A stretch of DNA of 64,000 bases from Nitrospinaceae bacterium (GCA_021604505.1 BQJC01000001.1:248001-312000), one strand, 5' to 3'. Shown: positions 34,446 through 56,437, counted from the stretch's first letter. Notes: generated by a model not told the origin, from the letters alone. Numbers and translations: made by a program.

Positions 34446-35903
34446 TTATATTGCCTGCGGGTCGTTCTTCTTTTTGACCTGGATTTTTAAGGCGTCGATT
34501 TTTCGTTTGAGCGTGTTGCGGTTGATCCCCAGTGCCTTTGCCGTGGGTACCTGCTTGCCGGAATAATGGTCCAGAAGAATTTCGAACAGATGTTTTTCCA
34601 TCGATTGAACCAGACGGTCGTGCAGGTTGTCTTTTTCTTTCCATTGATTCTCGGACAGGTAATCCAGAATCAGTTGGTTTAACTTTTCCCCCCATAGATC
34701 GTTTGCAGAAGCGGTTTCTTTTTGCTCGTTCGCCAGATGATCGGGAAGGTGGTCCGGCAAAATAGGGCCGGAAAGGGCCAGGACCACAGCCCGTTTGATC
34801 ACGTTTTCCAACTCACGAATATTTCCCCGCCAGGAATAACCGGCAATCAGGCGTTCTGTCTCGGGCGAAAGATAAACTTTCCCCCGGGCCAGGCTGGATG
34901 AGAACTTGGTTAAAAAATGATTGGCCAATAAGGGCACATCTTCCAATCGCTCCCTTAAAGGCGGCATGTGGATGTGGGTGACGTTGAGACGATGATACAG
35001 GTCTTCCCGGAACCCTTTGCGCTCCATCAGCGCTTCCAGATCTTGGTTGGTGGCCGCGAGAATGCGAACATCCACGCGGACCGGTTCTTTTCCGCCGACC
35101 CGGTAAAATTCATGATCCTGCAAGGCACGTAAAATTTTTGCCTGCAGGGACAACTCCATGTCGCCGATTTCATCGAGGAATAGAGTGCCGTTGTTGGCCA
35201 GCTCAAATTTTCCATGTTTGAGTTCCCCGGCACCGGTGAAGGCGCCTTTTTCATGGCCAAACAATTCCGATTCCAGCAATTCCCTTGAAATCGCCGCGCA
35301 GTTGATACAGATGAAAGGTCGTTTGTTTCTTTTGGAATAATAGTGCAGGGCTCTCGCAACCATTTCTTTTCCGGTGCCGCTCTCTCCGGTAATGAGAACC
35401 GGGAGATCGGTTTCCGCCAACTGGCCGATGGCTTTAAAGACCGGTTGCATTTTTTTACTTTTGCCGATGATGGCATCCACCGTAAAATCGGCGGTCTCCT
35501 TTTCAGGCAGGGTTGCGGGCGGCGCCTGAATGCTTTCGCTGATCACGGCCTTGTCTACGAGGGCATAAATTTCGTCGAAGTCGAAGGGCTTGCTGATGTA
35601 GTCGGTGGCTCCCTTGCGCATCGCTTCGATGGTGTTATTCATCGTGTCCTGTGCGGTCATAACGACGACTCTGAGATCCTGTTTGGTTTCCTTGACCCGC
35701 TCCAGTAACTCCAGTCCCGTCAGACCCTCCATAAAGATATCCGTAAACACCACCAGATAGTCATTGTTTTGGATTTTATCGAGTGCCTGCTCGCCGCTGG
35801 GCACAGTGTCCACCTGGAAATCTCTTTTCTCCAGAGCTTTTTTGAACACCCAGCGGATGTTTTCCTCATCATCGACAATTAAAATTTTATAGGGTTTGTC
35901 CAT
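34446..35903 (-). CDS. NtrC-family sigma-54 response regulator
   Basis: About 485 residues from the ATG at 35903 (GTG at 35921 also in frame). The receiver has ILIVDDEENIR and phospho-Asp in VVFTDIFMEG. The AAA+ domain follows with Walker A GESGTGKE and the sigma-54 contact loop GAFTGA (HEKGAFTGAGE). A Fis-type HTH closes it: KALGINRNTLKRKIDAL. It activates sigma-54 promoters when phosphorylated by the PAS kinase gene just upstream (15 bases). It is a candidate, alongside the CHASE2 activator at 51024, for control of the sigma-54 regulon that starts at 39 kb. Confidence 0.92.
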   Translation of the reverse strand: MDKPYKILIVDDEENIRWVFKKALEKRDFQVDTVPSGEQALDKIQNNDYLVVFTDIFMEGLTGLELLERVKETKQDLRVVVMTAQDTMNNTIEAMRKGATDYISKPFDFDEIYALVDKAVISESIQAPPATLPEKETADFTVDAIIGKSKKMQPVFKAIGQLAETDLPVLITGESGTGKEMVARALHYYSKRNKRPFICINCAAISRELLESELFGHEKGAFTGAGELKHGKFELANNGTLFLDEIGDMELSLQAKILRALQDHEFYRVGGKEPVRVDVRILAATNQDLEALMERKGFREDLYHRLNVTHIHMPPLRERLEDVPLLANHFLTKFSSSLARGKVYLSPETERLIAGYSWRGNIRELENVIKRAVVLALSGPILPDHLPDHLANEQKETASANDLWGEKLNQLILDYLSENQWKEKDNLHDRLVQSMEKHLFEILLDHYSGKQVPTAKALGINRNTLKRKIDALKIQVKKKNDPQAI

Positions 35904-35917
35904 AATCGCGTATTTTA

Positions 35918-37018
35918 TCACCTTTGCCGGACAGGAAGAAATACCTGGACGGTGGTTCCGAGGCCTTCTTCGGTCGTGATTTTGATCTTTCCGCCATGGT
36001 TTTCAACGATCTTAAGGGAAATGGGAAGTCCCAGTCCACTGCCTTTGTTTTTGGTGGTGAACAGGGGCGTGAAGAGGTTTTTCATGGCGGTTTCGTTGAT
36101 TCCTGTCCCTGAATCGATGATCTCCACCACGATGCTTTGACCGGGAGTGGCATCGGGAGAGGGCTTGATGGCGTAACCGGTGCTGACCCGGGTGATCAAC
36201 TGGATTTTTCCTTTTTCGGATGAGGCTTCGACGGCATTTCGAATCAGGTTGAAAAAGACCTGTTTCAATTGGTCTTCATCGGCGTCAATGAGCGGCAGGC
36301 TGGGGTCGTAAACCTCCTCAAGCCGGATGCGCTTTTGGCCGACGGACTCCCGTTCGAGCAAAATAATATCGTTTAAAACTTTATGGATATTGATTTCATT
36401 TTTGTTCAGCTCCCTGGGGCGGGTGAAATCCATCATCCGTTCGATCAACCGGTTGATTCGGTCCACCTCGGAGATGACCACGTCGAGGTATTCCTGTTGC
36501 TCCGGGTTTTCCAATTCCTGCCTGAGCAATTGCGCCGAAGCTCGGATTCCTCCCAGCGGATTTCTAATTTCGTGGGCCATTCCCAACGCCAGGGATTCTA
36601 TATTGGTGAGGTGATCGAGATTGCGGGAAAACTGCTCCAGTTCCTTTAACAGGCTCATGTCCTTGACCAGAAGGAGAACCCCCTGGACTTGCCCTTTTTC
36701 ATCGAGAAACGGGGAAAGGGTCAGGTTGACCGGAAAGAATGCAGGACGGTTTTTTTGGAATCCCCGGCATTCCACATCGCGGTAGGAAGCGCCTGTGGTC
36801 AAAACCTGTTGAATTTTGTTTTGCATCTCCGGCTGATCCGGAAACAGTTGGGAAAGAGGCTGGCCTTCAAAGGAATCCTTGGACTGGCGGAACATCTCTT
36901 CGATGACCGGGTTGCCTTTTTGGATCGTCAAGTCCTGGGAGACTAGAAGAATGCCATCGATGAGTGAGGAGAATATATTCTGAAGCAAACCGGGAGATTT
37001 TTCAGGAGGGGCGGCCAA
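35918..37018 (-). CDS. NtrB-type PAS sensor histidine kinase
   Basis: 366 residues, start TTG at 37018, no membrane segments. A PAS domain (IFSSLIDGILLVSQDLTIQKGN) is followed by HisKA with GMAHEIRNPLGGIRASAQLL and HATPase with NLIRNAVEAS and DSGTGI and KGSGLGLPISLKIV. It phosphorylates the NtrC-like regulator directly downstream. It begins two bases after the stop of the FmdB-like gene. As in the NtrB/GlnL class the sensor input is cytoplasmic. Confidence 0.88.
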   Translation of the reverse strand: MAAPPEKSPGLLQNIFSSLIDGILLVSQDLTIQKGNPVIEEMFRQSKDSFEGQPLSQLFPDQPEMQNKIQQVLTTGASYRDVECRGFQKNRPAFFPVNLTLSPFLDEKGQVQGVLLLVKDMSLLKELEQFSRNLDHLTNIESLALGMAHEIRNPLGGIRASAQLLRQELENPEQQEYLDVVISEVDRINRLIERMMDFTRPRELNKNEINIHKVLNDIILLERESVGQKRIRLEEVYDPSLPLIDADEDQLKQVFFNLIRNAVEASSEKGKIQLITRVSTGYAIKPSPDATPGQSIVVEIIDSGTGINETAMKNLFTPLFTTKNKGSGLGLPISLKIVENHGGKIKITTEEGLGTTVQVFLPVRQR

Positions 37019-38866: not shown

Positions 38867-39208
38867 TTAAATGCCGTCCAAGGCATTTTCCGTGGATTCA
38901 TAAATTTCAAAAACAGGCAATAGTTTGGCTATGCTGAACACATCCCTGACCATAGAACTCAGACCGGTCAGTCGGAATTTAGTGTGGTTATGGTGACTCC
39001 ATTGCAATCCCTCCACCAGTATGGCGAGACCAAAACTATTGATGAAGGTTACCTTGGAAAGGTCCACGATTATTCCTCTGGGATTATTTTTGAATAAATC
39101 GGTTAAATAGGACTGAACCTGGGTCGACCCATTCATATCGATATCTCCCTGGATCCTGACGGCTACCGCTCTGTCGCTGGCTTGGGTAAAATGGATGGAA
39201 GTTTTCAT
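38867..39208 (-). CDS. STAS-domain anti-sigma antagonist-like protein
   Basis: 113 residues from the ATG at 39208, preceded by a GGGGGG-type ribosome site; an ATG at 39271 sits in the transcript leader. Single STAS domain (RAVAVRIQGDIDMNGSTQVQSYL; IIVDLSKVTFINSFGLAILVEGLQ). Ser in NSFG occupies the phosphorylatable position of SpoIIAA-type antagonists. It is a paralogue of 59135-59476: both are 113 residues and end F-x-IY-x-ST-x-x-AL-x-x-I. It is controlled by the sigma-54 promoter at 39328. No partner kinase is in the window, so whether it acts as an antagonist or a scaffold is open. Confidence 0.85.
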   Translation of the reverse strand: MKTSIHFTQASDRAVAVRIQGDIDMNGSTQVQSYLTDLFKNNPRGIIVDLSKVTFINSFGLAILVEGLQWSHHNHTKFRLTGLSSMVRDVFSIAKLLPVFEIYESTENALDGI

Positions 39209-39270
39209 TTTTAGTTCCCCCCTTGAATTCGGTTCATCGACTTCGTTGTTTCGCTTGGGTTGGTTTTTCA

Positions 39271-39315
39271 CGAGTGATGCTCCTTTAAAGAAGCTGGGGT
39301 CCCGCTCCCCATATG
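39271..39315 (-). promoter_or_regulatory. Conserved structured 5-prime leader, copy 1
   Basis: 45 bases starting near the expected sigma-54 transcription start. On the minus strand it holds GGGGAGCGGGACCCC (hairpin), a GCTTC...GGAGC segment and TCACTCG. It aligns without gaps to the leader at 56900-56944 with roughly three quarters identity. Confidence 0.65.
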
Positions 39316-39327: not shown

Positions 39328-39343
39328 TGCATCCGTCGTGCCA
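39328..39343 (-). promoter_or_regulatory. Sigma-54 promoter for the STAS gene
   Basis: Minus-strand TGGCACGACGGATGCA has GG and GC separated by ten bases, matching the -24/-12 consensus TGGCACG-N4-TTGCA. It lies about 120 bases before the STAS start. Confidence 0.85.
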
Positions 39344-39426
39344 AAGCCCAATAAGAAAATAAACGCTTTAAAACCAGGTGGTTACTTGGAAGGGGCAGAA
39401 ATTCGATTGAGACGAAGGTGATGACC

Positions 39427-39446
39427 ATGCATGAACCATGCATGGT
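39427..39446. promoter_or_regulatory. Candidate enhancer-binding site (UAS) for the STAS promoter
   Basis: ATGCATGAACCATGCATGGT, one mismatch from the dyad ATGCATGG-A/T-CCATGCAT, 98 bases upstream of the -12 element. A second half-site (CCATGCAT) follows at about 39468. Confidence 0.75.
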
Positions 39447-39706: not shown

Positions 39707-40477
39707 TCAGTTTCCCAGGTCAATAGTGGTCTTGTTATTTGATCCGCTTTGGCGAATTTGGGCCGAGTTATTTTTTCCCCTCTGGACGATGCTCCCCTTG
39801 TTATTGTTTCCCTGTTGATCAATGCTTCCTTTGTTGTTCTTGCCATCCTGAAGAAGTTGAAGCTGGTTGTCCTCCCCGGACTGGGTCAGATTTTTTTCGT
39901 TGTTTTCCCCCATCTGGATGACGACCCGGGAATTGTTTTGGTCATCGGTGATGATCTGCTCCTGAGGTTCCCTGGCGTTGTCCATAGGTTCCGCATTGCC
40001 ATCCATATCCTTCTGTGCCCCTTCCTGCTGGGAGAGAAGAAATTCCTTTCTTTTTTTCTTCATTTCCGTTTCCATCTCTTCTCGTCGCATTTCAAATTCT
40101 TTTCTCATTCGTTGCCTCCGCAGTTCCAGTTCTTTTTTCCGGGCAATAATCTCACGGCTTCTAATAGACCTTTTTCCTGAAATCTGAGCTGAGTGGAAAT
40201 TCGATCTGTTGAAAGACGGAATGCCGTCAATAGAATTTTTCTGTTCAAAAAACGACTTCCGTGGGTAAAGCGCATTGATCTGCTGCTCATAACTTTCCTG
40301 GTAAACGCCCGGTTTGCTGTCCTTTGGAAGTTCCGCCGGATCCACGAAAAGGAGGGTCTGCCCGGAGGCGCCTGATGGAAGAATCATTGCCAGAGAAATA
40401 AGGGCTGCCCGCGCCCAGTAGGGGTTTTTGTTTTTTAGGCTTTTGTTTTTTGTGCAGATTTTATTCATATCTTGCAT
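39707..40477 (-). CDS. Secreted coiled-coil protein with curlin-like repeats
   Basis: 256 residues from the ATG at 40477 (GAAGGA upstream). Signal peptide (ARAALISLAMILPSGASG). Residues about 40-110 form a Tyr/Gln-rich head (YQESYEQQINALYPRKSFF, then GIPSFNRSNF), shared with the protein at 42040. A charged helix (RKKELELRRQRMRKEFEMRR) follows. The C-terminal 75 residues carry about seven 11-residue curlin-type half repeats, e.g. KNLTQSGEDNQ, LQLLQDGKNNK, GSIDQQGNNNK. It may be a nucleator or CsgB/F-like minor subunit that tethers amyloid to the surface (inference). It lies 49 bases after the CsgG-like gene. Confidence 0.8.
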   Translation of the reverse strand: MQDMNKICTKNKSLKNKNPYWARAALISLAMILPSGASGQTLLFVDPAELPKDSKPGVYQESYEQQINALYPRKSFFEQKNSIDGIPSFNRSNFHSAQISGKRSIRSREIIARKKELELRRQRMRKEFEMRREEMETEMKKKRKEFLLSQQEGAQKDMDGNAEPMDNAREPQEQIITDDQNNSRVVIQMGENNEKNLTQSGEDNQLQLLQDGKNNKGSIDQQGNNNKGSIVQRGKNNSAQIRQSGSNNKTTIDLGN

Positions 40478-40526
40478 GGCCGGTTCCTTCAATAAATAAG
40501 TTGTTGGTTTGAGACCATAATGTTCT

Positions 40527-41762
40527 TTAATTTTTTGCCATCTGTATGGCAGAGGATGGGTCTGCGACTGAAGCCAATCCCTTCTTTTTCCTTTCGATCA
40601 ATATATAGCCTTTTTTAATGACCTGGCCATTGGATGCGAAAGCCTTCGAATACTTTTCCTCAGGAGAGGAAACCACGACCGTGCCTACCTTTTTTTTAAG
40701 CGAGCCGAGTTTTTCCCCTGTATCCGGGTCGATCAGTTCTGTGCCAGGGGCGTAAACATCAAACATGTCGCCCCCGAAGACGTTGTTTCGGCTGCCGATG
40801 TTGGTATACAGAGAATCACCGCTGACTTTGATGATTTTCCCTTCGAAGGGAATCTGGTTGAGGTTGTTCGCGATCACTCGCACGGCTTTGTCGATAACCA
40901 TTTGAACGGATTTGCTGAGAGCCGTGTTTTCAAATTTTTCTGCGTCGAATCCGAAACCCATGTAGGAAACGCCGACCTTGTATCCCGTTCCTTTGGATTT
41001 TCCTTCCAGCCTTACAGAATCGATCACCTCCCCCGATGTGGTGTCGATGATTCGTAAAATCAACCCGACGTGAGCCGTGGCTGATTCCCCGCCCAAGGAA
41101 AATCCATTGTAACTTAAGCCCACACCGCCTCCTGACTCCTCCAGTTGAAACTCTGTAATGGCGCCTTTGATCATGATCTGGGCCGGAACCACACTTCCGG
41201 TTTTGGCAACCTTAGAGGCCCTGGCTCGTCCGCTTCGGGCGAAATCCTGCTCGTAAAGGACGTCTGAAATCGAAGCTCGTTCTAAAACAACGAAATTCGC
41301 ACTTTCAACCAGGGCGTTGGTGAGTTGATCGGCCATGCCCGACCCCAGATTGATCTGCCCCGCCGCCGTCGTGCGATTTTCAAATCGGGCCACCGCGATG
41401 GTCTTTCTAAACTGTGCTTTAGGAATTTGTTGCAGGTTATTTTTTTTGATGGCAACGGGAGCGCCTGCCCTGCCGGGTGTGCGTTTAACAGGGGTTGGCT
41501 CGGCAGTTTTTAAAGGATTTCCTTCATATCCAGATGTTTCCCAGGATTCATAATTGCTTGCCTGAGCATTTTGCCGGGTGGCTATTGAGTGATTCGCCTT
41601 GTTGTCAATTCTTGAGGTTCTCGATGGGCCCGATTCATCTGTGGAATATCCGTCAAATCCGGACGTTTCCCAAGACTCATAAGCATTGACCTCAGCACCA
41701 CCTGCAAAAAGAGCGAGAGCTGCAATCAGGACGATGGATTGGAGATTGGGTGCATTTTTCAT
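40527..41762 (-). CDS. CsgG-family secretion channel protein (non-lipidated)
   Basis: 411 residues from the ATG at 41762 (GGGAGGG upstream). A cleavable signal peptide (LQSIVLIAALALFAGGAEVNA-YE) has no lipobox Cys. The mature start carries a duplicated YESWETSGF/Y-D/EG motif. The CsgG domain follows with KTIAVARFENRTTAAGQINLGSGMADQLTNAL, VPAQIMIKGAITEFQLEE and a later SLKKKVGTVVVSSPEEKYS. CsgG forms the outer-membrane curli secretion nonamer. It is a paralogue of 42768-43814, which has the lipobox. The curlin/coiled-coil gene follows it. This operon uses the sigma-54 promoter at 41838. Confidence 0.88.
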   Translation of the reverse strand: MKNAPNLQSIVLIAALALFAGGAEVNAYESWETSGFDGYSTDESGPSRTSRIDNKANHSIATRQNAQASNYESWETSGYEGNPLKTAEPTPVKRTPGRAGAPVAIKKNNLQQIPKAQFRKTIAVARFENRTTAAGQINLGSGMADQLTNALVESANFVVLERASISDVLYEQDFARSGRARASKVAKTGSVVPAQIMIKGAITEFQLEESGGGVGLSYNGFSLGGESATAHVGLILRIIDTTSGEVIDSVRLEGKSKGTGYKVGVSYMGFGFDAEKFENTALSKSVQMVIDKAVRVIANNLNQIPFEGKIIKVSGDSLYTNIGSRNNVFGGDMFDVYAPGTELIDPDTGEKLGSLKKKVGTVVVSSPEEKYSKAFASNGQVIKKGYILIERKKKGLASVADPSSAIQMAKN

Positions 41763-41837
41763 TGGGTGTTCCCTCCCTGCTTTCATGAATGACCACTGAT
41801 TTAGAAGAAGACTCGTTAAGTGTTCTCCGTTTAATAA

Positions 41838-41853
41838 AGCAGGAGACGTGCCA
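41838..41853 (-). promoter_or_regulatory. Sigma-54 promoter for the non-lipidated csgG-like operon
   Basis: Minus-strand TGGCACGTCTCCTGCT: GG and GC separated by ten bases. Leader to the start codon is about 65 bases. Confidence 0.8.
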
Positions 41854-41949
41854 AATTTTGAGTGAGCTCGTCTTAGATTGTTAAACCATTAAATTACAAG
41901 TAAATTAAAGTTTCTTACGGATTTTCCTTATCAGTAGATGGTCTTATCC

Positions 41950-41970
41950 ATGCATGGGGATTGCATGGAT
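41950..41970. promoter_or_regulatory. Candidate UAS for the 41838 promoter
   Basis: ATGCATGGGG followed by ATTGCATGGAT: an expanded, imperfect version of the dyad, about 111 bases upstream of the -12 element. Confidence 0.55.
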
Positions 41971-42039
41971 CAGGGGTTGAAAGAAAGAACCATGCAGAAC
42001 CCATCACTGACTGAAAATATTTTTTCCCCATGGTTGGTA

Positions 42040-42717
42040 TTATTTCTGAATATCCACCAGGGCGCTGTTGCCGGAACCTTCCTGGATCACGGTAACGTTA
42101 CTTTTTACAGATCCTTCAGGGTTTCCCGTTTTCGGGATGAGATTTCCTTCATCATCTTGTGTGATCTGGATAATGACCTCAGTGTTGTTCTGGTTGTCTA
42201 CCAGGATGGGGGCGCCCGGTGGAAAGGACCCACCAAGAGAAACTCCTGGACCCACGACAGGAGAGCCCGTTTCTACGAACTCACCAAAGGGGCCGCTTCC
42301 CCCCTGGCCATAGCCCTGGATTCCTGATGAGGCCTGCTGTTGGTTTTGCAGGCTAAGCTGTCTTTGTTTCAGGTCCGTTTCCATCAGTTCTTTTTGAAGT
42401 TCGAATTCCTTTTCACGGCGCATCTCCTCCCGGCTTCGGTAGGCTCGCGCCTCGGCCTCGTAAAAGTTTTTGAACGTTGGCCGCCGCGAAGAAGGAATCC
42501 CGTAGGAAAACTGATTTTGTTCGAACGATTCCCGCTGATAAGGGGTTTGGACTTCCTGCTGGTAGGTTTCCTGATAAGCGCTGGACTCGATTTCCTGCTG
42601 CGCGCCTGCCGCGGCAGGAATCAAAAGCGCCATGCAGAAAAGCCCCAAAGGATGGGCCCATTTAATTTTTTTTGAAATGTTCTTTCTTGGTAATTGTTTG
42701 TTTATCGTAAAGATCAT
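42040..42717 (-). CDS. Secreted curlin-like accessory protein
   Basis: 225 residues. Signal peptide (GLFCMALLIPAAAGA-QQ). A Tyr/Gln-rich head YQETYQQEVQTPYQRESFEQ, then YGIPSSRRPTFKNFYE and a charged helix, parallel to the head of the protein at 39707. The C-terminal part has only about two weak curlin-like segments (NNTEVIIQITQDDEGN; VTVIQEGSGNSALVDIQ) and a Gly/Pro linker. It directly follows the lipoprotein CsgG gene (50 bases). A role in amyloid export or anchoring is likely but unproven. GGGGACGT precedes the ATG at 42717. Confidence 0.75.
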   Translation of the reverse strand: MIFTINKQLPRKNISKKIKWAHPLGLFCMALLIPAAAGAQQEIESSAYQETYQQEVQTPYQRESFEQNQFSYGIPSSRRPTFKNFYEAEARAYRSREEMRREKEFELQKELMETDLKQRQLSLQNQQQASSGIQGYGQGGSGPFGEFVETGSPVVGPGVSLGGSFPPGAPILVDNQNNTEVIIQITQDDEGNLIPKTGNPEGSVKSNVTVIQEGSGNSALVDIQK

Positions 42718-42767
42718 GGTTACGTCCCCTTTATTGAAAGTTTATAATTAGAAAACTTAGACCGCAT

Positions 42768-43814
42768 TTAATGTTTACTGGGAAACCCTTTAGCCGGCAG
42801 GTTCCTCTCCATTAAGATATATCCCTTTTTTAGAATTTCCCCATTAGCCGCAAACGCCTTAGAGAACTTTTTCTGCGGCGAGGAAATAACAACAGTACCT
42901 ACTTTTTTCTTCAGTGAACCAAGTTGTTCACCGGTATCGGGATCGATCAATTCATCTCCAGGGGAATAAACGTCGAACAAATCCCCGCCATGGACCTGGT
43001 TACGGCTGCCGATGTTTGTGTAACAGGAATCCCCTTCCATCCAGATCACCTTGCCCTGAAACGGAATCTGGTTTAAATGATTGGCAATCCTTTCCACTCC
43101 CTTATCTATGACCTTTTGAACGGCCTTACTGAGAGCCGTATTGTCAAATTTTTCCCCATCGATTCCGACTCCCATGTAAGAGACCCCAAATTTGTATCCC
43201 TTACCCTCCGCTTTGCCTTCCAGGCGGACAGAATCGAGGACCCGGCCCGTGGTGGTGTCAATGATTCTCAAGATAAGGGCTAGATGGGCTATGGAGCTCT
43301 CCCCGCCTACGGAAAACCCCTTGTAGCTGACACCCGCGCCGAGGCCGGCTTCCTGTAATTGAAACTCGGTAATGGATCCCTTAATCAGGATTTGAGCCGG
43401 CACCATTTTTCCGGTACCGGCGGTCGTCGAGTCCTGTGCTCGTTTGCTGCGAGCAAAATCCTGCTCGTAAAGAACATCCGCGATCCCCCGTCTTTCCAGA
43501 ACAACGAAATTACCGCTTTGAACCAAGGCATTGGTGAGCTGGTCGGCCATTCCGGAACCCAGGTTGATTTGGCCGGCGGCCGTCGTGCGGTTTTCAAACT
43601 TGGCCACGGCGATGGTTTTTCTGAATTGGGCTTTCTGGATGGCCGGTTTCTTATCAAGGATTTTTTGATTTCCAGCAAATGGAATTTCAAGGCCGTTCAT
43701 GGAATTCATGGGGCCCGAATTCATGCCCTCATTGGCGTTCGGAACCGAAGCACATCCCCCTGAAAAAACAACCGCTAGAAAAACTAAAATGGTTAATGTC
43801 CTCTGAATTTTCAT
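42768..43814 (-). CDS. csgG: CsgG-family outer-membrane lipoprotein
   Basis: 348 residues from the ATG at 43814 (GGAAAG upstream); an ATG at 43838 is less well placed. Lipoprotein signal LTILVFLAVVFSGGCAS, with Cys as first mature residue. The CsgG domain is nearly the same as its paralogue at 40527: KTIAVAKFENRTTAAGQINLG, VPAQILIKGSITEFQLQE, SLKKKVGTVVISSPQKKFS. It is expected to form the curli-type secretion pore. First gene of an operon under the sigma-54 promoter at 43882. Confidence 0.9.
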   Translation of the reverse strand: MKIQRTLTILVFLAVVFSGGCASVPNANEGMNSGPMNSMNGLEIPFAGNQKILDKKPAIQKAQFRKTIAVAKFENRTTAAGQINLGSGMADQLTNALVQSGNFVVLERRGIADVLYEQDFARSKRAQDSTTAGTGKMVPAQILIKGSITEFQLQEAGLGAGVSYKGFSVGGESSIAHLALILRIIDTTTGRVLDSVRLEGKAEGKGYKFGVSYMGVGIDGEKFDNTALSKAVQKVIDKGVERIANHLNQIPFQGKVIWMEGDSCYTNIGSRNQVHGGDLFDVYSPGDELIDPDTGEQLGSLKKKVGTVVISSPQKKFSKAFAANGEILKKGYILMERNLPAKGFPSKH

Positions 43815-43881
43815 TTTTCTTTCCGTTTTATGATTCATCAGTGACCTTTTGCATAGAGGTCATGAACAGCACCTAATGAAA

Positions 43882-43897
43882 AGCATGGATGATGCCA
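43882..43897 (-). promoter_or_regulatory. Sigma-54 promoter for the csgG lipoprotein operon
   Basis: Minus-strand TGGCATCATCCATGCT with ten bases between GG and GC. Leader to the ATG is about 57 bases. Confidence 0.75.
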
Positions 43898-43990
43898 AAC
43901 GCATGAAAAAAAAATAAATTCCTAAAATACCTTTTTTTATAGATTTTCACACCGTCTCTATCGCAATGCTTCCCATTGGGTTCTTTCGGA

Positions 43991-44010
43991 ATGCATGGTT
44001 CCATGCATGG
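43991..44010. promoter_or_regulatory. UAS shared by divergent promoters
   Basis: ATGCATGGTTCCATGCATGG, a near-perfect dyad with a two-base centre. It lies 108 bases from the minus-strand -12 (csgG lipoprotein) and 109 from the plus-strand -12 (curlin gene at 44209), so one site may serve both. Confidence 0.75.
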
Positions 44011-44106
44011 AGATGAAATGCAGGCGGGTTCCAGGCAGGCGGGCTTAAAGCGGATCAAAGTTTTTATGGTTTTAAAAATCAACGTTTAGCAAGTTTGCAA
44101 TAAGTT

Positions 44107-44122
44107 TGGCATGGGGAATGCA
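44107..44122 (+). promoter_or_regulatory. Sigma-54 promoter for the curlin gene at 44209
   Basis: TGGCATGGGGAATGCA, GG and GC ten bases apart. Divergent from the promoter at 43882. Confidence 0.8.
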
Positions 44123-44208
44123 CTAGAGGGTTTGCAGAAACGTTAAGAAATATTCTTAACAAGACAAAAGTCAAACTCACCACTCACTAAACCTGAAAGG
44201 AACTCATC

Positions 44209-44775
44209 ATGAAAAAGACTCAAATTTTTGCAATCGCCATGGCCGCCATCATCACTATGATCAGTGCTGGGAACAGCAGCGCGTTTGAATGGGATTCCCC
44301 TTACTATCAACCTAAAATGGAAAAAAAGTGGATGCATTCACCCATGGATCGCCCCTGGCATCCCCACAAGCGCTGCAAAGGTGAAAACTCTGCTACTTCC
44401 ATTCAGGAAGGTTTTGAAAATATCGGCCAGATTGGTATGAGCGGATGTCGAAACAACACCGAAGTCTACCAGACCGGTGAATACAATGAAGCCTTGGTCG
44501 ATGTAAAAGGCAAGTATAACAACAGCTACTTGAGCCAGTATGGCTACGAAAACAAGGCTGAGCTTTATCAGTCCAAACGCCGCAACGACGCGACCCTGAA
44601 TCAGTTCGGATACAACAACCGCGCTTTCATGGACCAGTACGGAAAACGCAACAAAGCGGATGTATTTCAGGACGGCGAAGATAACCAGGTATTTTTGAGC
44701 CAGGGCGGAAAAAAAGATTCTGCCTTCGTCAGCCAGATCGGTTCCGGAAATATCACCGAGATCATTCAAGATTAA
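44209..44775 (+). CDS. Secreted curlin-repeat (CsgA-like) protein
   Basis: 188 residues. ATG at 44209 with AAAGGAACTC upstream. Signal peptide (FAIAMAAIITMISAGNSSA-FE), then about 11 half-repeats of 11 residues with pattern A-x-x-x-Q-x-G-x-x-N, e.g. SYLSQYGYENK, ATLNQFGYNNR, AFMDQYGKRNK, AFVSQIGSGNI. That pattern builds the beta-helix of curli. Two Cys (HKRCKG and MSGCRNN), 23 residues apart, occur at the same spacing in the larger sister at 45162. Probably an amyloid fibre subunit exported through the CsgG pores. A strong terminator follows. Confidence 0.85.
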   Translation: MKKTQIFAIAMAAIITMISAGNSSAFEWDSPYYQPKMEKKWMHSPMDRPWHPHKRCKGENSATSIQEGFENIGQIGMSGCRNNTEVYQTGEYNEALVDVKGKYNNSYLSQYGYENKAELYQSKRRNDATLNQFGYNNRAFMDQYGKRNKADVFQDGEDNQVFLSQGGKKDSAFVSQIGSGNITEIIQD

Positions 44776-44817
44776 TAACGGATTCATTCTTAACTCATTC
44801 TGTCTTCCCTCATAATC

Positions 44818-44862
44818 AACCGGGTTCCTGGACTCCAACCCCAGGGACCCGGTTCTTTTTTT
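44818..44862 (+). terminator. Rho-independent terminator after curlin gene
   Basis: AACCGGGTTCCTGG pairs with CCAGGGACCCGGTT (14 bases per arm, one mismatch), then TTCTTTTTTT. Confidence 0.9.
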
Positions 44863-44945
44863 GCTTTCCATTTATCAGGCGGTGCTGATTATCAAGATTT
44901 CAATTTCCAAATCGGATTCTTTCCCACCCGCTTTTCAATAGAACC

Positions 44946-44965
44946 ATGCATGGTCCGATGCATGG
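44946..44965. promoter_or_regulatory. Candidate UAS for the large curlin gene
   Basis: ATGCATGGTCCGATGCATGG, the dyad with one inserted base. It lies about 94 bases upstream of the -12 element at 45059-45060. Confidence 0.7.
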
Positions 44966-45046
44966 AGCCCGTCTTCCTCTTCAAGGTAAAAGGCCAACTT
45001 TGTCGTAACCTTTTGTTTTTAAATAAGAAGAAATTTGTTTTCTGTT

Positions 45047-45062
45047 TGGCACGCTGCCTGCA
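45047..45062 (+). promoter_or_regulatory. Sigma-54 promoter for the large curlin gene
   Basis: TGGCACGCTGCCTGCA, GG and GC ten bases apart, about 100 bases before the start at 45162. Confidence 0.85.
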
Positions 45063-45161
45063 CTACATAAAGTCAGAAAAGTTGATTGAAGCTGAGTCCA
45101 CGAGGCTAACAACCCAATGAATAAAACCCAAACAAACCAAATTCTGAAAGGAGCACCCAAA

Positions 45162-45923
45162 ATGAAAAAGACTCAAGCATTCGCGATGGCACTCGCTGCC
45201 ACACTGACTTTCCTCAGTGCCGGAACCAGCGGCGCCTTTGAAGGAGGAACCTCCTATTACAATTATTATGAAAATAAACACGAAATGGGGAAGCGGTCTC
45301 CGATGCATCGATATCATTGCCCCGGTGGAAACGATGTGCAATCCAGTCAAGATGGATACAAAAATGGCGTCTCCATCGGCACGCAGGGTTGCAACAACAG
45401 CACGACCATTGATCAATTCGGGCATTACAACAGAAGCGAATCCTTTCAGGATGGCTTCAGGAACCGCGCCAGCACTTTCCAATATGGAATCACTAACAAG
45501 AACACAACGGACCAGGCCGGCTACCGAAATTCGGCCAGCACATTTCAGTATGGGGACACGAACAAGGGACAAACCGTCCAGCGGGGTTACCGAAATCGCG
45601 CTTCCATGGACCAGTATGGCGATTTTCAGTGGGGTCAGATCATTCAGGACGGTAAAAGGAATAATGCCCGTATGGACCAGGCAGGGAACTACAACGTTGG
45701 CTTGATCCGCCAGGGCGGACAGGGCTCCAGAAACTGGGCCGGACTGACCCAGGACGGTAACGTCAACGCCGGTGTTATTCTGCAGACGGGGGAGGTAAAT
45801 GAATCCGATCTCCTTCAGAACGGAAGCAACAACGTCGCGGTGGTGGCCCAGTCCTCCAATGCAAACAAAATGAACGTCCTTCAGGATGGCAAGGGCAACA
45901 TCACCATCCTCAGTCAGGATTGA
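45162..45923 (+). CDS. Large secreted curlin-repeat (CsgA-like) protein
   Basis: 253 residues from the ATG at 45162 (AAAGGAG upstream); an ATG at 45117 is in the leader. Signal peptide (FAMALAATLTFLSAGTSGA-FE) close to that at 44209. About 17 half-repeats, e.g. TTIDQFGHYNR, ASTFQYGITNK, ARMDQAGNYNV, AGLTQDGNVNA, GVILQTGEVNE, ending MNVLQDGKGNI and TILSQD. The N-terminal Cys pair (YHCPGG, TQGCNN) has the same 23-residue spacing as in the smaller subunit. It is a candidate major fibre subunit. Confidence 0.87.
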   Translation: MKKTQAFAMALAATLTFLSAGTSGAFEGGTSYYNYYENKHEMGKRSPMHRYHCPGGNDVQSSQDGYKNGVSIGTQGCNNSTTIDQFGHYNRSESFQDGFRNRASTFQYGITNKNTTDQAGYRNSASTFQYGDTNKGQTVQRGYRNRASMDQYGDFQWGQIIQDGKRNNARMDQAGNYNVGLIRQGGQGSRNWAGLTQDGNVNAGVILQTGEVNESDLLQNGSNNVAVVAQSSNANKMNVLQDGKGNITILSQD

Positions 45924-46875: not shown

Positions 46876-49800
46876 ATGAAACTCTTAACTGATGTAAGCA
46901 AATTCAGAAAAGCGAGTTTTTCCGGCCTATTTCAAAGAAGGCGGCGCCTCATATTACCTTATTCAAAATACCGTTCAATCTCGATCGATCGACCACAGGC
47001 TGAAAGAAAAGGGCGGTCCTTTGTATTGTGTATCTCTGTTTTCCTTGTAACCCTTTTTTCCTTTATTGCAGAGCAAGCGTTTTCAAAAGGCGGCATTGTT
47101 GCGGTACCCATCCAGGATGCAAAGGGTCAAGAGGTCATCCTTTATAAAGCCAGCTACGCCTTGGTCGTTGGAATTAGTGACTACACCGGAGATTGGCCCA
47201 GGTTGCCTGGGGTTAAGGATGATGTCAAAGCCGTGAAAGAGGTTTTGGAAGAAATTGGTTTCGAGGTGATCCTGGTTGAAAACCCCACTCGCAGAGAATT
47301 AGAAGCCGCCTACAAGGATTTTGTTCTGGATTATGGTTTGGATCCTGAAAACCGCCTGCTTTTTTACTACGCGGGGCATGGTCATACCCATAAACCCAGT
47401 TATGCCACCGATGATCCGGAAGAGTGGATGGGTTATCTCGTTGCCAGAGACGCCCCCAAAGCCAACAACAATCTGGCAAATTTTTTCGAACATTCGCTAA
47501 GCATGCGAACGGTTGAAAATTTAGCTTTGTCCATCGAATCCAAGCATGCAATTTTTATTTTTGACAGTTGTTTTTCGGGTTCGATTTTCGGACTCAGCCG
47601 CAGCATCCCCCAGGATATTCAGGAACGGGTGGCAAAGCCTGTCCGTCAGTTTATCACTTCCGGAACGGCCGACCAGGTGGTTCCCGATACCAGTATTTTC
47701 CGAAGGCAGTTTATCTCAGCGCTCAAAGGGGAAGCGGACAGAAATAAGGATGGGTATGTAACGGGTTCGGAATTGGGTCTGTTTCTTGAGGAAACGGTCA
47801 CCAACCTGAGCCGTCGATCCCAGACCCCGCGTTATGGAAAAGTCCTGAATCGATTTTTGAATAAGGGGGATTTTGTCTTCAACATTAACAAAGCCGATTC
47901 TCCTCAGATGGCTTCATTAAAATATGAAGACCTTATGGCATCCATCCAGCGTTTAACGGATGAAGTGGTTGCAAACAGAGGAGAACGCTCAAACAGGGTT
48001 AAAATTCATTATTCAAAATTAAAGGAGTTGGATAAATTCAAGGGATCTATATCAAATAATACCAAGATCAAACTCTGGAAAGATTTCATAACCTTGTTCC
48101 CTAAAAACAACCCTTATTTGGAAGAAGCCAAAGCGATCATAAAGAGCTTACGTAACGATCAGGCGCCTTCACCCCGGATAACAGAAACCATCGATCAAAA
48201 AATAGAGTCCCGCTTTGCCTCACTGATGGACCTGGAGCGGCAACCAGTATCTCCTGACAAAAAAATAGACGCCTGGATGGCCTTCGTGGGGGATTTCCCA
48301 AAAAATAATCCCAAGTTGGATTTGGCCCTGGCCAAATTAACCGAACTCAGGGCAGAGCAAAAACGTTTCGCCGAGGAGGAGGCCAGAATAAAAGAGCAGG
48401 AGCGCCTCGCTGAGGAAAAGAGATTGGCCGAAGAGAAAGCCCGGAGAGAAGAACAAACCCGCTTGGCAGAGCAAAAACGTCTTGCCGAGGAGGAGGCCAG
48501 AATAAAAGAGCAGGAACGCCTCGCTGAGGAAAAGAGGCTGGCCGAAGAGAAAGCCCAGAGAGAAGAACAAGCCCGCTTGGCAGAGCAAAAACGTCTTGCC
48601 GAGGAGGAGGCCAGAGTGAAAGAGGAGGAGCGTCTCGCCGAGGAAAAGAGATTGGCCGAAGAGAAAGCCCGGAAAGAAGAACAAGCCCGCTTGGCAGAGC
48701 AAAAACGTCTCGCCGAGGAGGAGGCCAGAGTGAAAGAGGAGGAGCGCCTCGCCGAGGAAAATACGCGTCAATTCCCTCCCTCTGAAGGGTTGGAAGTTGC
48801 CCGTAGGGAACCTGGAATCCCCAGGGATTTTTCGGATCCCTTGACAGGCAATGAAGGGATGATATTCATCCCTGCCGGAAAATATTTTTCAGACAAATCC
48901 CATTCACCGGAGATGCAGTTGTTACATGCCTTTTATATGGATATCAACGAGGTGACGCAAAAAGATTTCGAGCGGGTGATGGGAAAAAACCCATCCCGGT
49001 TTAAGGGAGAGAACCGTCCCGTCGAGAAAGTGACCTGGAACGAAGCGAAGGAATATTGTCATCGAATCGGGAAACGTCTGCCGACCAGCGAAGAGTGGGA
49101 AAAGGCGGCCCGTGCGGGCACCTCCAGCATTTTTTACTGGGGCAACCATTTAGGAAAAAACCATGCGAATTGTCCTGACTGCGGCAGTCGGTGGGATGGG
49201 GTGGAAACAGCCCCTGTAAGGAGCTTTGCCCCCAATGCATGGGGTTTGTACGATATGGCGGGGAACGTCTGGGAATGGGTGAACAAAACCCATGATGGAA
49301 AATTCAAGGTCCTCAGAGGAGGATCCTGGATGGATGACTCCAGCTTTATGAATCCCGCGGAATTTTATTTTATCATGCCGGATAATCGCAGCGGAGATAT
49401 TGGGTTCCGGTGTTCCAAGTCGGAAGGGGCAGCGGTAATTTCGGAAAATGAACCCTCCGCAAACCCAGAATTTTTTAAAACAGATCCGGAACCCCTCGTG
49501 GAAGAAAAAAGTATAACACCCCATCGCCAGGGGGAATTTGAAGTTGCCAGTAAGGAGCCTGGAATGCCGAAAGCTTTTTCGAATTCATTGACGGGGCATG
49601 AGGGCATGATATTGATCCCGGCTGGTAAATATGCTTTCGGCGAGCTTGGTACGCAGAAGATAAAGGTGTTAAATGCTTTTTACATAGATGCGTACGAAGT
49701 GACTCAGAAAGCCTACCAGAAGGTGATGGGAGCCAATCCTTCCCGGTTTAAGGATGAGAACCGCCCGGTTGAGAAAGTGACCTGGGGCGAAGCGAAGGAA

Positions 49801-50172
49801 TATTGTCATCGAATCGGGAAACGTCTGCCGACCAGCGAAGAATGGGAGAAGGCCGCCCGGGCCGGAACATCCTCCGAGTACCACTGGGGGACGGAGCTGG
49901 GGGCAAACAAGGCCAACTGCAATGATTGCGGCAGTGAGTGGGGTGGGCTGAAAACAGCGCCTGTCGGCAGCTTCCATCCAAATGCCTGGGAATTGTATGA
50001 TATGGCGGGCAATGTTTGGGAGTGGGTCGACGAACCCTATGGAGACGGTTTTAAAGTTTTGCGCGGCGGATCCTGGATGGATGATTCTAGTTTTGTAAAG
50101 TCCTCCGGCTCCTACTTCTTGAAGCCCGACAACCGTAGCGGTGATATTGGATTCCGGTGCGCAAAGAATTAA
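46876..50172 (+). CDS. Caspase-like (C14) protein with coiled coil and two SUMF1/FGE domains
   Basis: 1098 residues. A membrane helix or signal (about 48-68) precedes a caspase-type peptidase domain with catalytic His168 (YYAGHGH) and Cys232 (IFDSCFSG). A helical linker follows, then about 150 residues of highly regular charged repeat (AEEKRLAEEKARREEQ). Two formylglycine-generating-enzyme-type (SUMF1, C-type-lectin-like fold) domains end the protein at about 665-855 and 905-1095, each with RPVEKVTW, KRLPTSEEWEKAARAG, DMAGNVWEW and VLRGGSW and ending GFRC. The domains are about 60 percent alike, so duplicated. Likely a signal-dependent protease whose SUMF1 domains bind or present ligands. The repeat block can cause copy-number changes or assembly error. 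Confidence 0.85.
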   Translation: MKLLTDVSKFRKASFSGLFQRRRRLILPYSKYRSISIDRPQAERKGRSFVLCISVFLVTLFSFIAEQAFSKGGIVAVPIQDAKGQEVILYKASYALVVGISDYTGDWPRLPGVKDDVKAVKEVLEEIGFEVILVENPTRRELEAAYKDFVLDYGLDPENRLLFYYAGHGHTHKPSYATDDPEEWMGYLVARDAPKANNNLANFFEHSLSMRTVENLALSIESKHAIFIFDSCFSGSIFGLSRSIPQDIQERVAKPVRQFITSGTADQVVPDTSIFRRQFISALKGEADRNKDGYVTGSELGLFLEETVTNLSRRSQTPRYGKVLNRFLNKGDFVFNINKADSPQMASLKYEDLMASIQRLTDEVVANRGERSNRVKIHYSKLKELDKFKGSISNNTKIKLWKDFITLFPKNNPYLEEAKAIIKSLRNDQAPSPRITETIDQKIESRFASLMDLERQPVSPDKKIDAWMAFVGDFPKNNPKLDLALAKLTELRAEQKRFAEEEARIKEQERLAEEKRLAEEKARREEQTRLAEQKRLAEEEARIKEQERLAEEKRLAEEKAQREEQARLAEQKRLAEEEARVKEEERLAEEKRLAEEKARKEEQARLAEQKRLAEEEARVKEEERLAEENTRQFPPSEGLEVARREPGIPRDFSDPLTGNEGMIFIPAGKYFSDKSHSPEMQLLHAFYMDINEVTQKDFERVMGKNPSRFKGENRPVEKVTWNEAKEYCHRIGKRLPTSEEWEKAARAGTSSIFYWGNHLGKNHANCPDCGSRWDGVETAPVRSFAPNAWGLYDMAGNVWEWVNKTHDGKFKVLRGGSWMDDSSFMNPAEFYFIMPDNRSGDIGFRCSKSEGAAVISENEPSANPEFFKTDPEPLVEEKSITPHRQGEFEVASKEPGMPKAFSNSLTGHEGMILIPAGKYAFGELGTQKIKVLNAFYIDAYEVTQKAYQKVMGANPSRFKDENRPVEKVTWGEAKEYCHRIGKRLPTSEEWEKAARAGTSSEYHWGTELGANKANCNDCGSEWGGLKTAPVGSFHPNAWELYDMAGNVWEWVDEPYGDGFKVLRGGSWMDDSSFVKSSGSYFLKPDNRSGDIGFRCAKN

Positions 50173-51023: not shown

Positions 51024-53765
51024 TTAAGACGGTTTTCCCTGATAACTCAGTTTTACCAATTCCCGAATAGCAGGATGGTATTGAGTGGGAATATTTTTTG
51101 ACCGTTTAAGGACTTCGTTGACAGCCTCAGTTTCATGGTTAAAGCCATGGACTGTTTTGATCAAATTATCATGATACTCCGCAATTTTCTGATGAACAAT
51201 TTTTTGACCCAGATGATCATTGGAAATTTCTTCCGCCACTTTTCCACGATCTAAATTATTTTTTACCAGCAATTCAAAGCAAATTCCCTTGAATCTGGAG
51301 GACACCGTGTTCCGGCTCATATTTAAATTTGCGGCAGTTTCATTGATCTCAAACTTATTTTCTCGAAGCGAACTCAATAATAATTCATCATCGACGCCCC
51401 CTCTTAACCTGGTCTTATTCTCTACGGGTGCATGAGAATCCCCTTGAGAGTCCAACCCTAAATCTTTTTCCTGGACCATGTCATTCATAGTGAGCGTGAT
51501 GCCGCGTTGAACAATATTTTCCAGTTCTCGAATATTCCCCTTCCAATCATGGTTCATAAGTTTTTTCATCGCTTGCTCAGAAACACCTGATAGGTTCTTT
51601 CCGTAAGCCTTTGAATATTTCAGGATAAAGTGCTGAACCAGAAAAGGAATATCCTCTTTCCTGTCCCGCAACGGAGGCAAAGTCACCGTAAGCGCATTCA
51701 ACCGGTAAAACAGGTCTTCCCTGAATCGGTCATTTCGAATCAGGTTTTCCAGCTTTTGATGGGTTGCGGCTACAACCCGGGTGTCGGTTTTTAATGCATT
51801 CCCGCCGATAGGCTGGACCTCTTTTTCCTGAAGAACCCGTAACAATTTAACTTGCGCATCTAAACTGGTGTCGCCAATCTCATCCAGAAAAATGGTGCCT
51901 TTATCGGCAAGAACAAATTTTCCTTTTTTATCGTTGATGGCTCCTGTAAAAGCCCCCTTTTTATGGCCAAAAAGTTCGCTCTCAATGAGATCTTTTGGAA
52001 TGGCCCCCATATTCACCGGGATGAACGGCTTATCCTTCCTTTCGCTCAGGGTATGAAGAGCCCGGGCAAACAGTTCCTTACCTGTTCCAGATTCACCTAA
52101 GATCAGTACCGGTGAGGGAACCGAGGCAAACTGTTTGAGAACCAGGAAGGTTTCAAGGATTTTCCGGTTTTGGGTCACGATTCCTGCATTCATGCATTCC
52201 TCGTGGATTTTTTCCATTTCTCCTTTGAACGTAGAGGGCTCGGCCAGGGAACCGACGTTCAGGTCACAAAATCTTTTTTCCAATTCCTCGTGTTCTTCCT
52301 GCAGTTTTAATTTTTGTTTAGTGATGGTTTCCAGTTTTGCCTGCAACTCATGGATTCGTTGATACTGAGTCTCCTCCAGCTTTTTTTCTTCAACCATACC
52401 TTCCTGCAAATCACTCAGCATGTTTAAAGTTTGCTTTAGTTCTTCCTCTTTTCCGGTCAACTTTTGTAAAACACGGGCGATGCTGGATTCGATTTGCTGT
52501 TTTTCAATTAATAACTCATCGGAATATTTTTTCTCCACCGTGGACTGATAGACAGAAGCGAGCAAACTGGTTATCACAATAGTGAGAATGGGTAAAAACA
52601 GTTCGAGAATGACTCCAAAGTAAAATAAAAAAATTCCTAAAACCACATACCCGCCCGCCAGAATAAAAACCGCACTTATGGTTCGAACGTACTGTCGGGA
52701 TATCAGCATTCGGGAAGTTGCGAAGCTCAACAGAAAAATCATCAGGACGTTGAAAGCCGGAGTGGTTTCGCGGAGAAAATTTCGGGTCAACAGGGTGTTG
52801 ATAATGTTAGCGTGGATACCGGGGCCGGGGAAATTTCTTTCCAGGGGAATGCTTTTTATATCGCTTCCGGATAAGGTGTTTGCGATTAAAATTATTTTTC
52901 CGGTCAGGTCTTCAATCCCTTCCGAGGGAGCCGCTTTTTCATCGGATAAAACAGAAGCAAAGGAGGCATGCTTGAAAGTGTCCTCCCATTTGCCGGCAAA
53001 GTTGATGAGCATCTGCCCCTTGGAATCGACAGGAATGGATAAATCCGTAACTGCTTTTTCGCCAGGAAGGCTGACTCCCGGAACGATTAGAGATGAACCT
53101 GTGAATCGGATATTTGAATGAGGGACTTTCAAAAAATTAAGGACGGTTTGAAATGCCAGGGAGGGGAGAAGTTTTTCCTGATGGCGAACCACCAGCGGGA
53201 CGCGTCTCACGATCCCGTCAATATCGCGGTTGGTGGCAATATGGCCCAGCCCTTCCGGACGCATTAGTTCAGGCAAGGGGAATATGGAGTCTTCCGACGA
53301 AAAAAGATTCTTTTTAGTCCCGGAGGCCAAATGATCTTCCCATAAATAAGACGAACCGGGCTTTTTTTCTGAAAGCAGAAGATCGCTTTCAGAAAGGCTG
53401 ATAGCAACCGGAAACACAACATTTCCTATATCGCGGGAAGCGGACGCCAGAAAGGCATCTTTTTCAGGGGCCTGAGGGTGTGCAAACAAAATATCATAGG
53501 TGACCACCGCGGCTTCAGCATCCTTTAAAAACGCAAGCATTTGCGCATGAATCGACCGGTCCCAGGGCCAGTTCCCGTATTTCCTGGCGCTGGCATCATC
53601 CGCATCGATCATAACCAGGGAAGAAACAGTATCTATTTCCCCCCGGAATGCGAACCGCATGTCTATCGTTTTTAATTCCCAGGATCGGAAAAGATCCCCG
53701 GCTAAAAAAAACAACGTCAGGGTGAGTCCTGCTCCGCACAGACCTATCAGGAAAAATTTCTTCAT
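51024..53765 (-). CDS. Membrane-bound CHASE2 sigma-54 activator
   Basis: 913 residues from the ATG at 53765 (TTG at 53783 would add six). One N-terminal helix, then a CHASE2-type extracytoplasmic sensor (about 35-335), three further membrane helices (about 338-405), and a coiled coil. It ends in an AAA+ sigma-54-interacting domain with Walker A GESGTGKE (about 557) and GAFTGA (about 604), and a Fis-type HTH (INETAANLNMSRNTVSSRF). CHASE2 senses small molecules outside. Most sigma-54 activators are cytoplasmic, so a membrane-anchored DNA-binding version is notable. It is the strongest candidate for the dyads at the sigma-54 promoters nearby. Confidence 0.9.
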   Translation of the reverse strand: MKKFFLIGLCGAGLTLTLFFLAGDLFRSWELKTIDMRFAFRGEIDTVSSLVMIDADDASARKYGNWPWDRSIHAQMLAFLKDAEAAVVTYDILFAHPQAPEKDAFLASASRDIGNVVFPVAISLSESDLLLSEKKPGSSYLWEDHLASGTKKNLFSSEDSIFPLPELMRPEGLGHIATNRDIDGIVRRVPLVVRHQEKLLPSLAFQTVLNFLKVPHSNIRFTGSSLIVPGVSLPGEKAVTDLSIPVDSKGQMLINFAGKWEDTFKHASFASVLSDEKAAPSEGIEDLTGKIILIANTLSGSDIKSIPLERNFPGPGIHANIINTLLTRNFLRETTPAFNVLMIFLLSFATSRMLISRQYVRTISAVFILAGGYVVLGIFLFYFGVILELFLPILTIVITSLLASVYQSTVEKKYSDELLIEKQQIESSIARVLQKLTGKEEELKQTLNMLSDLQEGMVEEKKLEETQYQRIHELQAKLETITKQKLKLQEEHEELEKRFCDLNVGSLAEPSTFKGEMEKIHEECMNAGIVTQNRKILETFLVLKQFASVPSPVLILGESGTGKELFARALHTLSERKDKPFIPVNMGAIPKDLIESELFGHKKGAFTGAINDKKGKFVLADKGTIFLDEIGDTSLDAQVKLLRVLQEKEVQPIGGNALKTDTRVVAATHQKLENLIRNDRFREDLFYRLNALTVTLPPLRDRKEDIPFLVQHFILKYSKAYGKNLSGVSEQAMKKLMNHDWKGNIRELENIVQRGITLTMNDMVQEKDLGLDSQGDSHAPVENKTRLRGGVDDELLLSSLRENKFEINETAANLNMSRNTVSSRFKGICFELLVKNNLDRGKVAEEISNDHLGQKIVHQKIAEYHDNLIKTVHGFNHETEAVNEVLKRSKNIPTQYHPAIRELVKLSYQGKPS

Positions 53766-53791
53766 CGTAATCGTAAGATCCAAGGTTCGGG

Positions 53792-55901: not shown

Positions 55902-56360
55902 TTACGAATTTGGAAAGGGGCTTTTTCTTTTATAGTCCCGATAATGGAGACTTTCGTTTCCATTCACCCCGTCTTCCAGCGGGTCTTTGTAAATGAGATC
56001 CCATGAACCGTCCTGATCGACATCGACGGCATACAGCGTCGGCTCTTTGACCGCAATGTAATAGTAAAAGGACTCCGTGTAATTCACCGTGAACACCAAG
56101 TGGTCCGCATTGTTTTTCATCACCTCATCCAGTAATTCTTTTGAAAAATATGAGGTTGTGACTATTCTCCAGGAACAGAAATCGACCCTGCCGTCGTTGT
56201 CGGTGTCGTAGGTGATGTAGAGCAGACCGTCATTGGCGAGGTCCCAATCCACCCGCGTTTCAATTTCCGGTTCTGCGTTGGGAAGCCCTTGCGTCCATGC
56301 CCCGGATGGAGAAAGCAGGAAAATCGAAATTATAATCAGGATGTGAATTTTGGTTTTCAT
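55902..56360 (-). CDS. Secreted protein with EF-hand-like Asp loops
   Basis: 152 residues. Signal peptide (HILIIISIFLLSPSGAWTQ-GL). Two calcium-loop-like segments, YDTDNDGRVDF and DVDQDGSWDLIYKDP, are typical of secreted repeat proteins (VCBS/EF-hand style). AAGGAGAAGCC precedes the ATG, a leader shared with other genes here. Controlled by the sigma-54 promoter at 56438. Confidence 0.7.
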   Translation of the reverse strand: MKTKIHILIIISIFLLSPSGAWTQGLPNAEPEIETRVDWDLANDGLLYITYDTDNDGRVDFCSWRIVTTSYFSKELLDEVMKNNADHLVFTVNYTESFYYYIAVKEPTLYAVDVDQDGSWDLIYKDPLEDGVNGNESLHYRDYKRKSPFPNS

Positions 56361-56437
56361 TTTGGCTTCTCCTTACTTTTTCTTTCCGGTGAACTCCCTA
56401 ACGATTCTCTTTTGAAAATCGCTCTTACTTAGGGAAG

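Follow-up and report, generated by a model that had tools for sequence, protein, structure and literature searches.

How might a bacterium build curli-type fibers without the export helpers CsgE and CsgF? This question is raised by a cluster of six genes at positions 39707-45923 of a 64,000-nucleotide stretch of DNA (the window; G000:C1:248001-312000), which belongs to a 3.64 Mb assembly, 96% complete, taken as Nitrospinaceae and as the same genus as genome G003. The cluster encodes two curlin-repeat subunits and two CsgG-domain proteins, each CsgG gene being followed by a gene for what we call a head protein. We proposed, at about an even chance of being right, that this is a functional-amyloid (curli-type) locus in which the usual export helpers have been replaced. 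All six open reading frames on which the original prediction was built were present:

39707..40477, minus strand, head protein A; Curlin_rpt in the tail (E=2.2e-9); modeled with AlphaFold2
40527..41786, minus strand, CsgG2; signal peptide without lipobox, C-terminal extension, without constriction loop; PF03783, E=1.5e-37
42040..42717, minus strand, head protein B; layout of head A with a longer linker and a weak curlin-like tail; no Pfam family
42768..43838, minus strand, CsgG1; predicted lipoprotein, C-terminal extension, without constriction loop; PF03783, E=6.2e-36
44209..44775, plus strand, curlin subunit 1; Curlin_rpt E=1.9e-22 (Pfam); 11 full half-repeats by register
45117..45923, plus strand, curlin subunit 2; Curlin_rpt E=3.1e-16 (Pfam); 17 full half-repeats by register

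Curlin Subunits and the Absence of CsgE and CsgF

Both curlins carried signal peptides, as read from the sequence, and a clean 11-residue register with nearly no slippage, in which the Q/G/N positions of known curlins were kept almost perfectly. Strict QxGxxN motifs numbered seven in curlin 1 and 13 in curlin 2, against 0.10 and 0.33 expected from shuffling, and CsgB/CsgA models matched the curlins with E values down to 2.6e-26. The predicted counts of about 11 and 17 half-repeats were right by register and shuffling, and across the whole genome curlin repeats were found at this locus only. From these repeats, we infer that the product is amyloid. The two curlins also differ from E. coli CsgA in sharing an N-terminal segment that contains His and, close to where the repeats begin, two cysteines; a disulfide or a metal site is possible.

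Alongside the curlins, the locus encodes the CsgG-domain proteins expected of a type VIII secretion system (T8SS), recognized by Pfam and by a profile match to curli CsgGs. CsgE and CsgF, which the original prediction had not seen, were missing from the rest of the assembly as well: in genome-wide profile searches CsgE was undetected, and the best CsgF score was 13.7 bits against a cut-off of 25.8, which is at chance level. As a positive control, the same Pfam models scored the CsgE and CsgF of G046 and G055, two genomes of the same order with ordinary curli loci, at 73-94 bits. Because the models detected the proteins of these order-mates, CsgE and CsgF are truly absent from this assembly, with the reservation that 4% of the genome is missing from it.

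Elsewhere in the order (L038, L040-L046, L048, and L049), many curlins were clustered, with eight in L038 and about a dozen in L040-L041 of G048, and CsgE-CsgF-CsgG directly followed the curlins in L038 and L048. In two genomes of the family, G013 and G005 (L037:8945-10841 and L091:10330-11000), curlin genes lay near a TPR protein, and CsgG was not recognized within the fetched stretch.

Two CsgG Proteins from a Separate Branch

The predicted duplication of CsgG was evident from the CsgG domain that Pfam recognized in both large proteins. CsgG1 and CsgG2 were 66% identical to each other and 19-23% identical to E. coli CsgG and to the curli CsgGs of the order. In a maximum-likelihood tree of 15 rows with two long branches, they formed a separate group outside the curli branch (98/97), together with genes of G003, G004, G041, and G056. 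The low identity and the separate branch indicate that these CsgGs were not derived from the canonical curli CsgG of the order, which argues for replacement and not for simple loss. In profile comparison, the window CsgGs matched the curli CsgGs (96.8%, E=2.6e-10) over a region spanning both membrane hairpins. At the sequence level, both transmembrane (TM) hairpins were kept and amphipathic: the residues facing the lipid alternated (TM2, p=0.013 and 0.003; TM1, p=0.007 and 0.07) as clearly as they do in E. coli CsgG when measured in the same way; a third CsgG paralogue of the genome (L051) was without the two hairpins. The C-terminal extension of CsgG2 aligned with the FlgT_C-like region of CsgG1, and the FlgT_C match itself was obtained for CsgG1 only (E=0.0036), below the Pfam cut-off.

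The original prediction was of one lipoprotein and one protein without a lipobox: as read from the sequence, CsgG1 has a lipobox-like VFSGGC and may be lipidated, and CsgG2 has an AxA-type signal peptide with no Cys. The non-lipidated protein had been called puzzling, and the genus-mate resolves this puzzle in part. CsgG2 grouped with the sole CsgG of G003 (96/93), which is likewise without a lipobox, so that CsgG2 is by its grouping the orthologue of the G003 gene and the non-lipidated form appears conserved; thus, faulty annotation does not explain it. The N-terminal WETSGxDG repeats of CsgG2 are a pair of YESWETSG[FY][DE]G copies, and one similar stretch, EGWDPSGYDG, was observed in the G003 protein. 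In G056, in a non-curli setting, a lipobox-like Cys was present in one member of a tandem CsgG pair and absent from the other. In E. coli, CsgG without the lipidated Cys does not insert into the membrane and forms a soluble ring instead (PMC4389571); given this result, we proposed that CsgG2 would need CsgG1 or would serve as a periplasmic ring.

Head Proteins Paired with CsgG

Head A consists of a signal peptide, a disordered Tyr/Gln/Phe segment, a helix of ~60 residues, and eight C-terminal curlin-type half-repeats, with the ATG at 40477 favored as its start over the TTG at 40492. The AlphaFold2 model had a disordered N-terminal part, a helix at residues 94-156 (predicted local distance difference test, pLDDT, about 90), and a tail at residues 173-255 in which eight strands recur every 11 residues (pLDDT about 80). 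The protein contained six strict QxGxxN motifs against 0.15 expected, and was 37% identical to head B, chiefly over the N-terminal two thirds.

The order of CsgG followed by head held in three of the three pairs found, including that of G003. The G003 head, of 133 residues, is tail-less and shares with head B the region P-S-[SR]-R-R-P-x-F-x-N-F; a frameshift was rejected as the cause, since the curlin tail was absent in every frame, and the G003 genome gave no curlin match at E<=1e-4. Because G003 has a CsgG-head pair without any curlin, the head is separable from the curlin tail. Judged by gene order, the head belongs with this branch of CsgG as its partner, whereas the tail would have been added where curlins exist. 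Among the named genomes searched for further relatives, one contig only was found (L053), and the viral contigs searched held none.

CsgF has a prion-like aromatic N-terminal part that binds inside the lumen of CsgG; it also anchors CsgB and has a regulatory role in secretion (PMC10133297; PMC7304575). The heads would be comparable to CsgF in function, not by homology. Their likeness to CsgF lies in the Gln/aromatic-rich disordered N-terminal part (PMC10133297), and that to CsgB in the curlin repeats; however, they differ from both in having no detectable CsgF homology, a long helix between the two parts, and both proposed jobs in one chain.

Alternative Explanations

Several observations weigh against a locus that exports its own curlins with the heads in place of CsgF and CsgB. 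At the constriction-loop site, alignment to curli CsgG left an exact 11-residue gap in the window CsgGs (GQYKPGTGTTGWSTAVTQ vs GQ-INLGSG), which are accordingly not curli-type CsgGs with a constriction loop; in E. coli CsgG, the constriction consists of three stacked rings, Tyr66, Asn70, and Phe71 (PMC7304575). The closest CsgG relatives beyond G003, those of G004, G041, and G056, lie in curlin-free loci; we had weighed these as candidates for additional curli loci but discarded them, as they held small lipoproteins and other genes. AlphaFold2 modeling of CsgG1 from a 3-row alignment reached a mean pLDDT of 36, and the model was not used. Curlin-like C-termini had been predicted for both heads; this was solid for head A (Pfam and its six motifs) but weak for head B, the tail of which is poor, with one nonsignificant QxGxxN motif. 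A Foldseek search with the head A model returned no significant match, the best (E=0.2) being the amyloid FapC, with the CsgA fibril at rank 4. Profile comparison of the heads with CsgF gave nothing (probability 0.15%), and no homology to PF10614 was found. The CsgB equivalog model gave no match to head B; its score for head A, due to the repeats only, was 43.7 bits and fell short of the cut-off of 165. Thus, the original suggestion that the heads substitute for CsgF and CsgB finds indirect backing in the constant CsgG-head order but none in homology to CsgF, and its term "CsgG channels" is too strong for proteins that lack the canonical loop, although the conserved hairpins speak for it. Channel activity of the window CsgGs, as we infer it, is unproven because of the gap at the loop and the nearest relatives in loci without curlins; export of the curlins by these proteins is likewise a prediction.

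The strongest rival explanation builds on the same points. The window CsgGs would be an anchoring or stabilizing ring of the outer membrane to which the heads attach fibers, and the curlins would exit elsewhere, for example, through the constriction-loop CsgG at C2:702139. We consider this possible, if on the unlikely side. The lost loop, the extra FlgT_C-like domain, and the relatives in non-curli loci all fit such a ring, and the C2 protein, which is the one curli-like CsgG that the genome encodes outside the window, has the loop region and the hairpins and groups with the curli CsgGs, on a long branch of the tree. Outside curli, proteins of the wider CsgG/LpoB/FlgT group may be anchoring or stabilizing rings of this kind. 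However, the C2 channel adjoins its own putative substrates, and it is conserved (82-86% identity) in G002, G003, G004, and G008, four genomes of the family without curlin matches, so that it does not track the curlins; moreover, well-formed hairpins are kept in the window CsgGs. The C2 locus (L052:6492-9140; G000:C2:701491-704139) encodes its CsgG as a lipoprotein, and the neighboring proteins are D/N-rich with KTKTITKT repeats.

We regard as improbable an ordinary degenerate curli system, in which CsgE and CsgF were lost or diverged beyond recognition, CsgG was duplicated, and the mechanism is not new. Such loss is known, as about half of the alphaproteobacterial curli genera are without CsgE and CsgF (PMC3521004), and canonical curli are present in the same order; nevertheless, the window CsgGs stand far from the canonical curli CsgG of that order in both identity and branching. 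That the locus makes secreted, non-amyloid proteins, its repeats being soluble or matrix beta-solenoids, is very improbable given the curlin register and the CsgB/CsgA matches, even though many further proteins of its regulon are small and secreted.

Against these explanations stands the reading that we prefer, an alternative curli system whose heads take on the tasks of CsgF and CsgB together; we judge it evenly poised between right and wrong.

Organization of the Sigma-54 Regulon

The divergent sigma-54 promoters of the original prediction were recovered at 41838 and 43882 (minus strand) and at 44106 and 45046 (plus strand), each a perfect match to TTGGCAYN6TGCW, as was a fifth upstream of a neighboring STAS gene. 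The promoters, the enhancer-like sites, and the associated genes are as follows:

39328..39344, minus strand, sigma-54 promoter of the STAS gene
41838..41854, minus strand, sigma-54 promoter of CsgG2-head A
43882..43898, minus strand, sigma-54 promoter of CsgG1-head B
44106..44122, plus strand, sigma-54 promoter of curlin 1
45046..45062, plus strand, sigma-54 promoter of curlin 2
39425..39445, unstranded, enhancer-like double palindrome upstream of the STAS gene
41948..41968, unstranded, enhancer-like double palindrome upstream of CsgG2
43991..44010, unstranded, enhancer-like double palindrome shared between CsgG1 and curlin 1
44944..44965, unstranded, enhancer-like double palindrome upstream of curlin 2
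38867..39271, minus strand, STAS-domain protein (PF01740, E=4.7e-16), same promoter type
59135-59476, second STAS gene (PF01740, E=4e-21)
51024..53783, minus strand, sigma-54 activator with CHASE2 sensor, candidate regulator (PF05226, E=4.4e-50; PF00158, E=1.9e-64)
34446..35921, minus strand, NtrC-type response regulator, alternative candidate regulator, adjoining a PAS histidine kinase (35918-37018)

Perfect promoters numbered 11 in the window against 0.12 expected from a second-order Markov control; all lay within 39328-63321, and the first 39.3 kb held none. Genome-wide, 12 of the 16 strict sites fell within 287328-313802 of C1 (26.5 kb). Palindromes of the CCATGCATGG type gave 17 matches at <=1 mismatch against 2.4 expected. 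Most promoters had one or two of them upstream, often paired 11-12 bp apart and mostly 71-106 bp away; the promoter at 57871 had no recognizable upstream palindrome. The units behind these promoters comprised both CsgG-head pairs, both curlins, the STAS protein, a protein resembling haem oxygenase, and several secreted proteins of small size, among them a CARDB-domain protein, and a further promoter with a double palindrome preceded a small secreted protein at C4:47631. With GG-N10-GC promoters, enhancer-like sites, an activator gene, and rpoN all found in the genome, the sequence places the locus in a sigma-54 regulon of ~26.5 kb. No such promoter or enhancer motif was found upstream of the CsgG-head pair of G003. 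A general link of sigma-54 to control of the cell exterior has been described (PMC3162934).

Further members and neighbors were observed. Small, mostly secreted proteins behind sigma-54 promoters with enhancer-like sites were encoded at window positions 55902-63321 and at L099 8768-10885, and some promoters, for example those at 56957, C1:313014, and C1:313786, had no convincing open reading frame behind them; small RNAs or missed genes are possible. An identical promoter, TTGGCACGCGAGGTGCA, preceded small secreted proteins at C4:47631 and C3:215003 (L122:3777-4184 and L123:4144-5660), and in each neighborhood, one of the proteins has a signal region (MKNLIK...) similar to window 58170-58649. 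The protein at 46876-50172, with a one-mismatch sigma-54 site at 46807, has a caspase-like domain and two FGE-sulfatase domains, joined by a linker of KRLAEEEAR-type repeats; in G003, a shorter homologue is encoded close to the CsgG-head pair.

Proposed Mechanism

In the alternative curli system that we propose, the CHASE2 activator (51024) or the NtrC-type regulator (34446) would bind the double palindromes and switch the cluster on. The conserved amphipathic hairpins would let the CsgGs assemble into rings in the outer membrane, through which the unfolded curlins would exit. The aromatic/Gln-rich N-terminal part of each head may bind its own CsgG, narrowing or gating the constriction-less pore in the manner of CsgF, with the long helix spanning outwards and the short curlin stack seeding and anchoring the curlin fibers, which is the job of CsgB. 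CsgG2 could insert by co-assembly with the lipidated CsgG1, or be a periplasmic ring. Gating and nucleation by the heads, like this mixed or periplasmic role of CsgG2, are predicted steps. The full arrangement, a wide loop-less ring of lipidated and non-lipidated subunits, one protein serving as CsgF-like plug, helical rod, and CsgB-like nucleator, and two such units feeding a pair of curlins, we consider doubtful.

Comparison with Known Systems and Implications

The locus shares with the curli T8SS (csgBAC-csgDEFG of E. coli and the order-mates) its curlin repeats and the encoding of CsgG-domain proteins next to the subunits, in units that diverge from them. In contrast, no CsgE or CsgF was detected, CsgC and CsgD were not recognized, and its two CsgGs are of another branch, loop-less and with an extra C-terminal domain, behind sigma-54-type promoters. 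Curli lacking CsgE and CsgF are already known in Alphaproteobacteria (PMC3521004), where curlins and CsgG occur with csgH; no csgH-like gene was recognized here, and the extra gene is instead the CsgG-linked head with a curlin tail. In the Caulobacter holdfast anchor HfaA-HfaB-HfaD, the CsgG-like HfaB is needed to place a curlin-like protein at the surface (PMC6707917); by description, this likewise joins a CsgG-like to a curlin-like protein, whereas the window has two CsgG-head pairs. In the literature searched, we found no description of the loop-less CsgG branch, of duplicated CsgG-head units, or of a sigma-54 regulon for curli, and for curli in Nitrospinota only magnetosome work turned up.

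Taken together, the results suggest that curli-type amyloids may be produced by way of a CsgG branch from outside curli, with neither CsgE nor CsgF; the essential parts (ring and curlin) would then be distinguished from the exchangeable ones (gate and nucleator). The locus offers for testing a natural CsgG without the constriction loop and a natural pair of CsgGs, one putatively lipidated and one not, and it would link amyloid production in this bacterium with a sigma-54 regulon that is compact and sharply delimited.

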